Source: Methanoregulaceae archaeon
GTDB lineage: Archaea > Halobacteriota > Methanomicrobia > Methanomicrobiales > Methanospirillaceae
Reading direction: 5' to 3'
DNA: 51,401 nucleotides
Assembly (NCBI GenBank): GCA_015660965.1
Contig: JACTVG010000010.1
Location: 1 to 51,401, forward strand
The notes beneath the pieces are model-generated. The model was not told the DNA's origin and searched no databases. It saw only the letters and a list, made by a program, of their open reading frames with translations. Positions 42,856 to 48,136 of this stretch are shown here, piece after piece (positions within the stretch are counted from its first letter, which is position 1; every line of letters starts with the position of its first letter). A program made the translations under genes and the position numbers.

Positions 42856-42981
42856 AGTGTTCATCCATGAGATGGTTGGGAGTGAATATACCTTTTTTCG
42901 ACAGAGAATATAGGTTTATATATTGTAGATAGAGAACAATAGAGTAATACAGATTATCTGCTGAAGAATGGTGTGAGTACT
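42856..42981. promoter_or_regulatory. Divergent promoter region of pstS and the AbrB-PhoU gene
   Basis: A near-palindromic TATA stretch (GGTTTATATATTG, about 42911-42923) is suitable in both directions; a second ATA-rich box (GAATATACC) lies nearer pstS. Spacing gives leaders of roughly 30-40 bases on both sides. Regulators of phosphate uptake would be expected to act here. Confidence 0.5.
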
Positions 42982-44016
42982 ATGGAGATCCGGAGAGTCC
43001 AATTTACAGGAGGTTCATCGTATGTGATGACGCTGCCCAAAGAATGGGTTGAAGCGGAGAAGATCAAGAAGAATGATCCGATCGGTGTGGAAGTCCAGCC
43101 GGACGGGACACTGCTCGTGACCAAAGCGACCGAACGGGAACCGTTACAACGGACCAAGGAGTTTGATCTTGCCGGTATTTCTGAATCTGCGTACCTGTTC
43201 CGTCTGCTGATTGGAGCGTACATTTCAGGGTTCACCACGATCATCATCCGCTCGAAGGAACGTTTCCCCCCATTCGTCCGGATGGTTGTGCGGGATTTCA
43301 CCCAGATGACAATCGGCCAGGAAGTAATTGAGGAGACCGACACTGCTATCATTATAAAAGACCTCCTCAACCCCACGGAAATGCCGTTTGCAAATACGAT
43401 CAAGCGGATGTTTGTGATTGCGAAAGCGATGCATGAGGACGCAATTACCGCGATAAAAACCCGCAATATCGCACTCGCAGCAGATGTGACCGCACGCGAC
43501 AACGATGTGGACCGGCTCCACTGGCTCATAGCACGTCAGACTCATATGATCCTGTCCAATGTTGCACTCTCCAAAAAAATGGGTGTGTCACCGAACATGG
43601 CAGTACATTATTACAATATCAGCCGAATCATCGAGCGAATCGGGGACCATGCAGAGCGGATGGTGGATAATGCGAACGTAGTTCTCACGAAAGAGATTGA
43701 CCCAGTTATCATCAGTAAAATCTCAAGGGCAAGTGAGCTCTCGGTCAGCCTCTTTGACAGGAGTATTGTCTCGTTTTTCGCGAACGATATGAAAAAGTCA
43801 CACAAGAATATTGAATCAGTACAGGTGCTCGAATCCCTTTGCGGTGAGATCAACAATCTCGTTCTCCAGCAGGAGACATCCGATGCTATTGCGCTGGGGT
43901 ATATCACCGAACGCGTGAGGAGGGTAGGGGAATATGCAGCCGATATCTCGGAAAATGTGATCAATTATCTGGTAGAAGAAGGACAATTTCAGAAGAAGGG
44001 AAAACCTGCCAGCTGA
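42982..44016 (+). CDS. AbrB-PhoU phosphate regulator
   Basis: ATG 42982 has GGTG eight bases upstream; a GTG at 42973 is the alternative. The 344-residue product starts with an AbrB/SpoVT-type DNA-binding domain (IRRVQFTGGSSYVMTLPKEWV, DPIGVEVQPDGTLLVTKA) fused to a PhoU domain with ARDNDVDRLHWLIARQTHMI and SRIIERIGDHAERMVDNAN. Fusions like this are known archaeal regulators of phosphate uptake. It lies head-to-head with pstS and most likely controls that operon. Confidence 0.85.
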   Translation: MEIRRVQFTGGSSYVMTLPKEWVEAEKIKKNDPIGVEVQPDGTLLVTKATEREPLQRTKEFDLAGISESAYLFRLLIGAYISGFTTIIIRSKERFPPFVRMVVRDFTQMTIGQEVIEETDTAIIIKDLLNPTEMPFANTIKRMFVIAKAMHEDAITAIKTRNIALAADVTARDNDVDRLHWLIARQTHMILSNVALSKKMGVSPNMAVHYYNISRIIERIGDHAERMVDNANVVLTKEIDPVIISKISRASELSVSLFDRSIVSFFANDMKKSHKNIESVQVLESLCGEINNLVLQQETSDAIALGYITERVRRVGEYAADISENVINYLVEEGQFQKKGKPAS

Positions 44017-44042
44017 TTCAGCATGGTGAATTTCATTTATCT

Positions 44043-44080
44043 TTTTTAATCAATAATACACTGTTGATTGTGTTTTTTTC
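44043..44080. terminator. AT-rich 3' flank with repeat motif
   Basis: T6 followed by TAATCAATAATACA, shared with 38316-38361, then a second T7 run. It lies just after the regulator gene and could terminate its transcript. Confidence 0.35.
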
Positions 44081-44249
44081 ACGTCCATCTCACCGGACAA
44101 TCCATGACCCTCATATCAGATTGGTGCAAAAATGAACCATGTGGAACAAAATTTAACCAATGAAATTGTCGCGCTCCTCCTCCAGGAAAATCTCCATACC
44201 CGGGCCAAATTGAAAAAAAGAATCTTCTCATTTTTTCCTTCTCTTTGGA

Positions 44250-45332
44250 ATGCATATGCTCCACCCTGATGGTGGACAGCAATTAATATACCAGAGCATC
44301 CCCAGTCTTTTTAGAGGAAGAGATAGCATCACCCGCCCCACGAATCCGAAGCGAGTGCCTGCACGGGCGACAGACCGGCTGCATGAAGGAGCGGGTAGTG
44401 TTGTCACCTGGTATCTCCTGCTCATTATCCTCACAGTCGCTCTCATCGTGGTCCCGGCATCTGCTGAAAACCAGGTGAACGCTTCTGCCCTCCGCCATGA
44501 ACCTAGAGTCGTGCATATTGGGGTCTTTGTTGTGGATTTCAGCCGGTTCAGTGTAGCGGAGGGGACGGTTGAAACAAATTTTTACGTAAATCTCCGCTCC
44601 GACTCACCCGTGTCGATCAGTGACTTCGAGATCATGAACGGGCATACAACGTCTATAGATACTATCCTTAATACCCCCAATGAAAAGAATTACCGGGTCT
44701 TTGCCGTAATGGATGCCGATCTCGACCTCAGCCATTACCCCTTCGACAATCATACGATCCCCATCGTCATTGAACCAAAACTCCTTTCCGAGCAATCTCT
44801 TGTTATGGTGATTGACAAAGGCAAAACTGGTATTGGGACGGAAGCCAATCTCCCGGGCTGGGAGTTTACCGGCAACAGTTATACGATAACAAATCAGTCC
44901 TACGTGACGGATGAGAACCCGTATTCCCGGGCGGTCTTCAGTTATGGCATCAGGAGAGACACAGCGTCAACCATCCTGAAATTCTTCCTGCCGATGATGC
45001 TCATCATCATCGTCTCCCTCTCCTCCCTCATGATGAAGGTCTCATCTCGACTGGGACTAAATGCCTCTATGTTCCTTGCCGCCGTGCTTATCCACTGGCG
45101 GATCTCCGATGCGATCCCGCTTGTTGCCTATGCAACCTTCCTGGATTTCTTTATGATCATCACCTATGCGACGCTGGTCATGGTTTTGGTATCCGGAATC
45201 CTGATCATAATGTTCACGGAATCCAAGGATACGGGACGGGTTGACTTGGTGTACCACTGGTCGATCCGCATCATCCCGGTGCTCTCGATCGGACTATATT
45301 TCCTGCTGTTCCTGACCCTCATGACGACATGA
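44250..45332 (+). CDS. Pentameric ligand-gated ion channel homologue (Cys-loop family)
   Basis: From ATG 44250 the product has 360 residues, but the N-terminus before the signal-like helix (about 50-72, ending PASAEN) is long and a later start is possible. The extracellular part has DADLDLSHYPFDNHTIPIVIEP, the YPFD motif of the ligand-binding domain that follows the Cys-loop position. Four membrane helices follow, with ILKFFLPMMLIIIVSLSSLM as M1, GLNASMFLAAVLIHWRISDAIP as the pore-lining M2, then M3 and M4. The LP..LI and Y.TF.D patterns match bacterial ELIC and GLIC. The loop Cys residues of animal receptors are absent, as in other prokaryotic members. It should gate ions on binding an unknown ligand. 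Confidence 0.8.
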   Translation: MHMLHPDGGQQLIYQSIPSLFRGRDSITRPTNPKRVPARATDRLHEGAGSVVTWYLLLIILTVALIVVPASAENQVNASALRHEPRVVHIGVFVVDFSRFSVAEGTVETNFYVNLRSDSPVSISDFEIMNGHTTSIDTILNTPNEKNYRVFAVMDADLDLSHYPFDNHTIPIVIEPKLLSEQSLVMVIDKGKTGIGTEANLPGWEFTGNSYTITNQSYVTDENPYSRAVFSYGIRRDTASTILKFFLPMMLIIIVSLSSLMMKVSSRLGLNASMFLAAVLIHWRISDAIPLVAYATFLDFFMIITYATLVMVLVSGILIIMFTESKDTGRVDLVYHWSIRIIPVLSIGLYFLLFLTLMTT

Positions 45333-45940
45333 GGGAGAGAGAGGTAATCGATACCAGCACTTTTAACCGCGAATGCGAACCGTTGCCGGGATTGTGTCCG
45401 GATCGTGGATGTCCTCACGATCGAGCAGGCGTATAAGAAGTAAAAGCGGTTCTGAGAAAATCAGAAATCGGGATCAGTAACTTTTTTTAAAATATTATTG
45501 GGGACATTTACTTTTGGGTGTTGTGTTTATTTGCTACACAGAATTTTGTATGTATTGCAAGCGCGGTTAGATTACTACAAAGAACCTTACAGTAATAACA
45601 TCGATATTCATTGACTTTCTCTATGTTTTTTTTATGTTTGGTCATTTAAGAGCGTTCGATACGACAACCTTTGAATGTTTTAAGCATTCACAACATCCAT
45701 ATGCTCGTCGTCTTTTTAGATCCGTAGGTGTTCGAATAACAGAGTGATTCACACACCCACATTGGTATGTCCATTGAAAAACATACCCTTTTACGCCCGG
45801 ATTTGAGGCAGTTGCAATAGGATATTGTGACAAAGGGTTTCTACTGAGCTGAGATACGATTTGTAGATCCCTTACTTCAAAAATTTTCGCAGTTAACGCC
45901 AAGTTGATGATTGCATCTGACAATAGTCTCGTTACAAACT
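45333..45940. other. Long intergenic region without a supported gene
   Basis: A stop-free stretch reading RIVDVLTIEQAYKK ends at TAA near 45440 and may be a fragment of a lost gene. A minus-strand frame at 45642-45923 encodes a 93-residue Cys-containing peptide with no ribosome site or clear family. The middle is AT-rich. I see no RNA gene. Confidence 0.4.
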
Positions 45941-48136
45941 ATGTCACACAAAAAATACATCCTCATACTCTGTGTCTCGCTCATCCTTATCGCAATCCTT
46001 GCGACTGGGTGCGTGAGCACTCCTGCGACTACACTGCCCGTAACGTCTGAACTGAAAAAGTTCAGTTCGACGGCCGAGATCGAGCAGTATATCAGGAATT
46101 CAACAGCAATGGAGCAGCAGAACGGATACGTATCCAACCTGGTCCCCACGGCAGGGATCAGCACCGGTGTGAATGTTCCGCAACGGGCAGACCTGGAGAA
46201 GGGGGGTATAGCCAACCCGGCATCTGCCTTGGGGGGAACTGTCGGGTACTCACAGACCAACGTACAAGTTGCCGGGGTCGATGAGCCCGATATCGTAAAA
46301 AACGATGATACGTATATCTACACGATATCTGGGTCGACTCTCGTTATTATCGATGCCTATCCAGCAGCAGGTGCATCGGTCATTTCAAAAACCGATATTT
46401 CCGATACGCCAAAAGACCTCTTTGTCATCGGAGACCGTCTTGTGCTCTTCACCACAGGCACGGGAACACCGGAAAACAGTGCACAACCGGCGAGTGCTGA
46501 AGCAGCTGTCGGGCAGGTAATGCCGATGCCCCCTATACGCTACTATACACCGGTCACGCATGCAATTGTGTATGATATCAGTGACCGGAAAAATCCCAAA
46601 GTGATGAAGGACTACACGATCGATGGCGATTATATCGATGCCCGAATGATTGGCTCACTCGTGTACATGGTCACTCAGGAGCAGATCTACCTCTACGCCA
46701 ATGACCATGTGGTCGTCCCCGCTGTCCGCGAAGGGACAATGACCGTGGTCCAACCGGATGTCTGGTATTTCAACAACCGCGAATCTCAGTATACGTTCAC
46801 CACCATTACCTCCCTTGATGCAATGAGCGGAAACGAAAAAGATGCCCAGACATACCTTCTTGGCAGTGGGAACATCCTCTATGTATCGCCAAATGCGATG
46901 TACGTGAGCTACCAGAAATACCCCCCGGTAATCTATACGGTGCAGGGTGGAAAGGAAATTATCCCGCCCCAGCCTGCTGCAGTCAATGGGGGTCTAGGTT
47001 CCAGCGGATCTGCCGGGGTTTCAACCTCGGTTGACACCGGCTCATCATCCGCAAAAATTGCAGTTCCACCTGCTGCACTCCCTGCTGACTTCAACTCCCT
47101 GACCGACGCCCAGAGGCAGTCGATCCTCAATAATCTCCGGAACGCCGAACAGGACTTGATCCGGCGGCAGGAAGCAGATCAAACTACCACTGTTGTCCAC
47201 AAGATCGCCATAAAGGACGGCACAATCACCTACATCGCAAAAGGTGAGGTACCGGGTACCCTGGACAACCAGTTCTCGATGGATGAATACAACAACAATC
47301 TCCGCCTCGCGACCACGTCCAGTATCTACACCCAATCCGGGCAATATACCTACAACAACGTCTATGTCCTGGACGGGACGATGACCACCATCGGTTCTTT
47401 AACCCATATTGCCGAACAGGAATCGATCTATTCGACCCGGTTCATCGGTGACCGGCTCTATATGGTGACCTTCAAGCGGATCGATCCCTTCTTTGTAATC
47501 GACCTCTCGACACCGGAGAACCCGACGATCCTCGGAAAACTGAAGATCCCCGGATACTCCGATTACCTGCACCCGTATGACGCGACGCATATCATCGGCA
47601 TCGGCAAGGAGACGACGACAAATGACTGGGGTGGTGTCTCTACAAGCGGGATCAAGCTCGCCCTCTTTGATGTCTCTGACGTGTCCAACCCAAAACAACT
47701 CGACAAGGTGCAGATTGGTGATGCAGGCTCTGACTCGGCAGCCCTCACGGACCACCACGCGTTCCTTTTCGATAAGGCAAAGAACCTCCTCGTAATCCCG
47801 GTCCGGGCGGTATCTGCATCCCAGGTCACCAAAGGCGACTATTACAACTACCAGCAGCAGGTTTGGTACGGGGCGTATGTGTTCGGCCTCACCCCGCAGA
47901 CCGGGTTTACCCTCCGGGGGACTGTCCAGCATGGGACCGGCGATAACGGTTACTATTATTACGGGAGCTCGACATCTGATGTGAAACGTTCCCTCTATAT
48001 TGACAATGTCCTCTACACGATGTCAGCAAAACAGATCAAGGCAAATTCGCTCGACGATATAAACACGACGATCGCAACGATACCCCTTCCCGGCACGGGA
48101 GATGTCTATTACCCTGTTCCGATGGGGATAAAGTAG
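45941..48136 (+). CDS. Secreted beta-propeller lipoprotein
   Basis: ATG 45941 is the preferred start (a TTG ten codons upstream is the alternative), followed by a signal and lipobox (ILATGC). The 731-residue product contains VQVAGVDEPDIVKNDDTYIYTI and the propeller blades typical of the Beta_propel (COG4880) secreted family, with HAIVYDISDRKNPKVMKDYTIDGDYIDARMIGS and later FVIDLSTPENPTILGKLKIPGYSDYLHP. A Gly/Ser and Ala/Pro-rich insertion (about 360-400) separates two halves. Such proteins are predicted proteases or binding scaffolds. No partner is evident. Confidence 0.85.
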   Translation: MSHKKYILILCVSLILIAILATGCVSTPATTLPVTSELKKFSSTAEIEQYIRNSTAMEQQNGYVSNLVPTAGISTGVNVPQRADLEKGGIANPASALGGTVGYSQTNVQVAGVDEPDIVKNDDTYIYTISGSTLVIIDAYPAAGASVISKTDISDTPKDLFVIGDRLVLFTTGTGTPENSAQPASAEAAVGQVMPMPPIRYYTPVTHAIVYDISDRKNPKVMKDYTIDGDYIDARMIGSLVYMVTQEQIYLYANDHVVVPAVREGTMTVVQPDVWYFNNRESQYTFTTITSLDAMSGNEKDAQTYLLGSGNILYVSPNAMYVSYQKYPPVIYTVQGGKEIIPPQPAAVNGGLGSSGSAGVSTSVDTGSSSAKIAVPPAALPADFNSLTDAQRQSILNNLRNAEQDLIRRQEADQTTTVVHKIAIKDGTITYIAKGEVPGTLDNQFSMDEYNNNLRLATTSSIYTQSGQYTYNNVYVLDGTMTTIGSLTHIAEQESIYSTRFIGDRLYMVTFKRIDPFFVIDLSTPENPTILGKLKIPGYSDYLHPYDATHIIGIGKETTTNDWGGVSTSGIKLALFDVSDVSNPKQLDKVQIGDAGSDSAALTDHHAFLFDKAKNLLVIPVRAVSASQVTKGDYYNYQQQVWYGAYVFGLTPQTGFTLRGTVQHGTGDNGYYYYGSSTSDVKRSLYIDNVLYTMSAKQIKANSLDDINTTIATIPLPGTGDVYYPVPMGIK

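Follow-up and report, generated by a model that had tools for sequence, protein, structure and literature searches.

A compact archaeal homologue of pentameric ligand-gated ion channels with a conserved putative AUU/AUC start context

INTRODUCTION

GLIC is a cation channel with a glutamate at position −2′ of its pore helix (E-2′, as read from our alignment). In ELIC, the selectivity filter is E-1′, and the hydrophobic gates are L9′ and F16′ (PMC12637682). Both belong to the pentameric ligand-gated ion channels (pLGICs), or Pro-loop superfamily. A 2016 inventory of 561 pLGICs included 24 archaeal sequences, listed seven superfamily-conserved residues in its Table 1, and stated that no pLGIC from a unicellular organism had a known biological role (PMC4795631). 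The genus Methanoregula is absent from that inventory, and our search of the literature yielded no study of a characterised archaeal pLGIC.

Non-AUG initiation that limits protein yield has been described in bacteria. E. coli infC and pcnB start with AUU, which lowers yield (PMC9410913), and Staphylococcus cvfC1 (AUU) and ccpN (AUA) have extended Shine-Dalgarno (SD) motifs, with reporter yield cut to roughly a tenth (PMC13009471). The start codons named in a review of archaea are AUG, GUG, and UUG only (PMC7531240).

Here we describe a methanogen gene that probably encodes a Pro-loop channel subunit behind a conserved putative non-AUG start. The protein would be a small relative of the nerve-cell ion channels that receive chemical signals. 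The superfamily is a known one; the features that set this protein apart are the compact extracellular domain, the nonacidic pore, and the putative start codon.

RESULTS AND DISCUSSION

Identity and predicted fold

The window (the whole stretch of DNA analysed, 51,401 nucleotides of a Methanoregulaceae contig) carries an open reading frame at 44250-45332 on the + strand that contains YPFD and four transmembrane helices in the right order, the second of which (M2) carries GLNASMFLAAVLIHW. When the window protein was searched against the PDB with phmmer, the GLIC-GABA-A chimera 5osa (E = 1.4e-14), DeCLIC (6v4a; 1.2e-10), and GLIC (~1e-9) were matched; a profile of 25 orthologues gave 2e-24 for 5osa, ~1e-19 to 1e-20 for GLIC, and 3e-19 for DeCLIC. 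The resemblance to solved pLGICs is far beyond chance, and GLIC and DeCLIC score best among the solved relatives. The NCBIfam models TIGR00860 and NF033918 (LIC and LGIC_1) match all 25 orthologues, with the window protein itself scoring below their curated cutoffs. It has no match to Pfam Neur_chan_LBD or Neur_chan_memb at E ≤ 1, and a PF02931 search of its own genome found nothing. The Pfam ligand-binding domain model matches just 13 of the 37 members of alignment A2, and, given the other evidence, we read the Pfam misses as a limit of these models and not as the absence of a channel.

All seven marker residues of the 2016 inventory are present: Y113, P114, D116, W154, R186, P198, and P240 (310-amino-acid numbering from 44400). 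Apart from the Y/F position, they are invariant in the 25 orthologues (alignment A1). They comprise the [F/Y]PxD Pro loop with P114 and D116, the β9 aromatic W154, the pre-M1 arginine R186, the M1 kink proline P198, and the M2-M3 loop proline P240. M2 also has the basic 0′ residue (R217, invariant) and the 9′ leucine (L226, near-invariant) of the superfamily. The window protein has no cysteine around YPFD and thus lacks the two flanking cysteines of metazoan Cys-loop receptors. YPFD had been taken for a ligand-binding motif in the first-pass annotation; it is instead the β6-β7 Pro loop, which couples the two domains (PMC4795631).

An AlphaFold2 (AF2) single-chain model of the mature form (mean pLDDT, 87; pTM, 0.74) consists of strands followed by four helices, M1 to M4, in order. 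All 50 PDB matches listed by Foldseek for this model were pLGIC chains (TM score, 0.79 to 0.85), among them GLIC, GlyR, and GABA-A chains (~0.84). We used the mature-form run; when the signal peptide was included, the membrane part was modelled poorly and the TM score was ~0.5. The first-pass call of a pLGIC homologue with four helices in the right order, which had been made to depend on a β-sandwich followed by four helices, is thus borne out by sequence, profile, marker residues, and predicted fold. Judged from sequence and model together, the open reading frame is predicted to encode an archaeal subunit of the Pro-loop superfamily. Its parts are as follows.

44328..45332, + strand: proposed coding sequence, 334 amino acids plus stop; open frame, with the leader frame open in 20/21 sequences
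44328..44465, + strand: predicted leader and signal peptide (Arg-rich n-region, hydrophobic core, and VVPASA cleavage site, assigned by eye)
44466..44960, + strand: compact extracellular β-sandwich domain (AF2 strands, pLDDT ~90)
44736..44747, + strand: Pro loop YPFD (β6-β7), domain-coupling motif (PMC4795631, Table 1); P and D invariant in 25 orthologues
44961..45026, + strand: M1 helix (AF2 helix 161-182) with invariant kink proline P198
45039..45113, + strand: M2 pore helix (AF2 helix 187-211; gapless alignment with GLIC), R0′ at 45048-45050, L9′, invariant H15′ and W16′
45138..45221, + strand: M3 helix (AF2 helix 220-247)
45231..45326, + strand: M4 helix (AF2 helix 251-282)

The hydrophobic core and the A/S-x-A site of the signal peptide are conserved in orthologues. 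By prediction, the M3-M4 loop is a few residues only.

Comparison with solved channels

GLIC and 5osa, the top PDB matches in sequence and among the top ones in fold, share with the window protein the overall architecture, the Pro loop, the β9 Trp, the pre-M1 Arg, the M1 and M2-M3 prolines, and an M2 that aligns without gaps. The profile-GLIC alignment falls into two blocks separated by 24 residues here versus ~50 in GLIC, so that the β2-to-β6 part is contracted by ~26 residues. Unlike GLIC, the window protein lacks E-2′ and H11′. DeCLIC and the long (620- to 690-amino-acid) methanogen pLGICs resemble it in the Pro loop, an SR at β10, and the M2-M3 proline, and the long archaeal proteins also have R0′. 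The long pLGICs differ in their large N-terminal domains, absent from the window protein, and in M2 (RADVASANLLLFIAFNF). In the ELIC numbering that we assume, S-2′, R0′, and L1′ are as in the window protein. The general plan and L9′ are further common to ELIC, as is a ring of aromatic residues at position 16′ (F16′; PMC12637682), whereas its selectivity residue E-1′ is a serine here and the listed top-scoring PDB chains do not include ELIC.

Pore and candidate gating mechanism

In the gapless alignment with GLIC, M2 reads S-2′, S-1′, R0′, L1′, G2′, L3′, N4′, A5′, S6′, M7′, F8′, L9′, A10′, A11′, V12′, L13′, I14′, H15′, W16′, and R17′, with a proline at 23′. The G2′, L9′, L13′, H15′, W16′, and R17′ of the window protein stand against T2′, I9′, A13′, N15′, I16′, and L17′ in GLIC. 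H15′ and W16′ are invariant and R17′ nearly so among the 25 orthologues. The GLNASMFLAAVLIHW stretch reported by the first-pass annotation is there, but the description of it as unusual does not hold for this family, since it is nearly invariant in the orthologues.

The acidic residue at −2′ or −1′ that marks cation-selective pLGICs of the GLIC/ELIC kind is found in none of the 25 orthologues. Given this absence and the presence of R0′, K-4′, and R17′, strong cation selectivity of that kind is less likely. Our preferred guess is that the pore would be anion permeable or weakly selective; we give this somewhat less than an even chance because residues before 0′ are, by the warning of the inventory's authors, not predictive of selectivity in prokaryotes (PMC4795631). 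By the same warning, cation selectivity of the GLIC and ELIC kind, even with no acidic ring, is a credible reading that we do not favor: D20′ (D237, near-invariant) lies at the outer mouth, while the E-1′ of ELIC (PMC12637682) and the E-2′ of GLIC are replaced by uncharged residues in 25/25 orthologues. With its compact extracellular domain and its pore without an acidic cation filter, the family should offer a minimal natural channel in which to test ion selectivity. GLIC, the closest solved relative, being a cation channel also speaks for cation selectivity.

By homology, five copies of the subunit, each with four helices and an extracellular N-terminal domain, would form a homopentameric ligand-gated channel. 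The β-sandwich domain would respond to a stimulus from outside the cell, and the signal would reach the M2 bundle through the Pro loop (where D116 is presumed to form a salt bridge to R186) and P240, the M2-M3 proline. A hydrophobic gate of L9′, L13′, and W16′ would then open, letting ions flow passively down their gradient. Two histidines, H118 (near-invariant and immediately C-terminal to the Pro loop) and H15′ (invariant), make pH a candidate stimulus. Gating by protons and not by a solute is conceivable, though we lean against it: loops A and B have no conserved aromatic residue in the alignment and GLIC, the closest relative, is proton gated, but the M2 histidine of GLIC sits at 11′ and not 15′, and titration does not follow from conservation alone. 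A nonconducting receptor, or a degenerating gene that retains the fold, is very improbable; the distribution is patchy (matches in 30/108 genomes of the family) and one genome (G113) has the gene only as broken pieces, yet M2 is among the most conserved parts and the frames are intact in the remaining orthologues.

A conserved putative AUU/AUC start

The first-pass annotation gave the frame as 44250-45332 and left its start for resolution. The frame is real; its first ATG is not the start, and ATC at 44328 is the best candidate. The elements of the start region are listed here.

44281..44290, + strand: TATA box AATTAATATA of the gene's own putative promoter; conserved, with a spacing of 43 to 49 nt
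44312..44319, + strand: predicted transcript 5′ end (placed by TATA spacing) and SD-like stretch AGAGGAA
44328..44330, + strand: proposed noncanonical start codon ATC; ATT/ATC at the aligned position in 18/26 sequences

A match of at least 8/10 to the AATTAATATA box is found in 16 of the in-frame orthologues, always 43 to 49 nt ahead of the start site; a score of at least 8/10 arises in 3.7% of shuffles. A GGAG-type purine run before the start site is also conserved. Duplex energies with the anti-SD AUCACCUCCU are −5.8 kcal/mol before ATC 44328, −0.8 before GTG 44355, and −2.4 before ATG 44250. At the aligned start position of the 26 sequences, which share ancestry and so do not count independently, we found ATT in 12, ATC in 6, and ATG in 1; three in-frame orthologues carry AAT, GGT, and GTT, and four are not aligned there in frame. 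Six orthologues (L017, L034, L046, L056, L057, and L060) have no ATG, GTG, or TTG between 30 nt before the aligned site and the signal peptide core. The leader is open in the channel frame in 20/21 sequences versus 10/21 in each other frame.

Two natural controls bear on the site. One orthologue has ATG exactly at the aligned position, and three (L048 to L050), in which an ATG lies five codons further upstream, no longer have the SD, consistent with a leaderless start at the upstream ATG. A downstream ATG preceded by a good SD is present in some others (L051, L054, and L058). The leader lacks an excess at third codon positions (permutation P = 0.21), and its translation is thus argued from the open frame and the start context. 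In a control for homology upstream of the first canonical start, the signal was dominated by close pairs and antisense frames. Rfam gave no match in 43900-46100 of the window.

Initiation at ATG 44250, as an open reading frame finder gives it, is scarcely credible. It is the first ATG of the frame, but it precedes the conserved TATA box by 31 nt and has a weak SD; L001, a close relative, has the frame broken by a stop codon downstream of the corresponding point. Initiation at GTG 44355, with ATT/ATC as part of a 5′ leader or a shared promoter-proximal element, is unlikely. This GTG is in frame, its position is common to L001 and L013/L052 (one genome), an in-frame TAA stands directly before it in L013/L052, and the lack of codon periodicity in the leader fits a start here. 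It has no SD before it and is missing from the other orthologues, and the six without any canonical start and the bias in open leader frames also speak against it.

The start thus seems to be ATC 44328, with AUU/AUC in sister species. The order TATA box, SD, AUU/AUC suggests a single-gene transcript, inefficient non-AUG translation, and a low channel copy number. We consider it rather probable, from comparison of the orthologous sequences, that this archaeal channel family conserves a true AUU/AUC start behind a dedicated TATA box and SD, which would set dosage as AUU does in infC and pcnB. Like these two genes, cvfC1, and ccpN, the channel gene would have an AUU-type start behind an SD (PMC9410913, PMC13009471); unlike them, it is a membrane channel gene for an archaeal ribosome, AUU and AUC interchange, and the start is read from sequence. 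A scan of ~315 kb for SD-preceded ATT/ATC starts showed no clear excess, with small peaks at the expected spacing for ATG, and the feature may therefore be specific to the channel gene. If the AUU/AUC start is real, archaea too would use non-AUG codons to control dosage, and gene callers that disallow such starts would misannotate the protein.

Distribution and gene neighborhood

Matches were found in 48/199 genomes sampled from the order, 30/108 from the family, and, at a stricter cutoff, 13/393 across the phylum. With 24 archaeal sequences already in PMC4795631, the first-pass statement that few archaeal members have been described understates the group. Two of the relatives come from named Methanoregula metagenome-assembled genomes (MAGs). 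The window's family has mostly the short type, and the other families of the order have mostly the DeCLIC-like 620- to 690-amino-acid type with large N-terminal domains.

L024 to L032 and other order-level matches are of this long type. A few of the family's genomes have a second, divergent short paralogue (24 to 28% identity) whose M2 contains SMFISAV (L061 in G017, L023 in G196, L039 in G211, and G173:C17:163653-164513). L070 (G504) and L072 (G410) are short pLGICs from other families of the phylum with ~25% identity to the window protein. At G113:C1:1544203-1545009 (L022 and L071), the channel gene is in several pieces with an internal stop codon and is apparently being lost.

Across the 21 loci compared, no neighbor gene is conserved; neighbors are common only to the closest pairs (here pst/PhoU) and give no operon clue. 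In the window, 42973-44016 encodes a PhoU-domain protein with an AbrB/MazE-type N-terminal domain and adjoins a divergently transcribed substrate-binding protein and a permease open reading frame that are pst-like by look. The region 45911-48136 encodes a large secreted β-propeller protein (PF09826, E = 1e-162).
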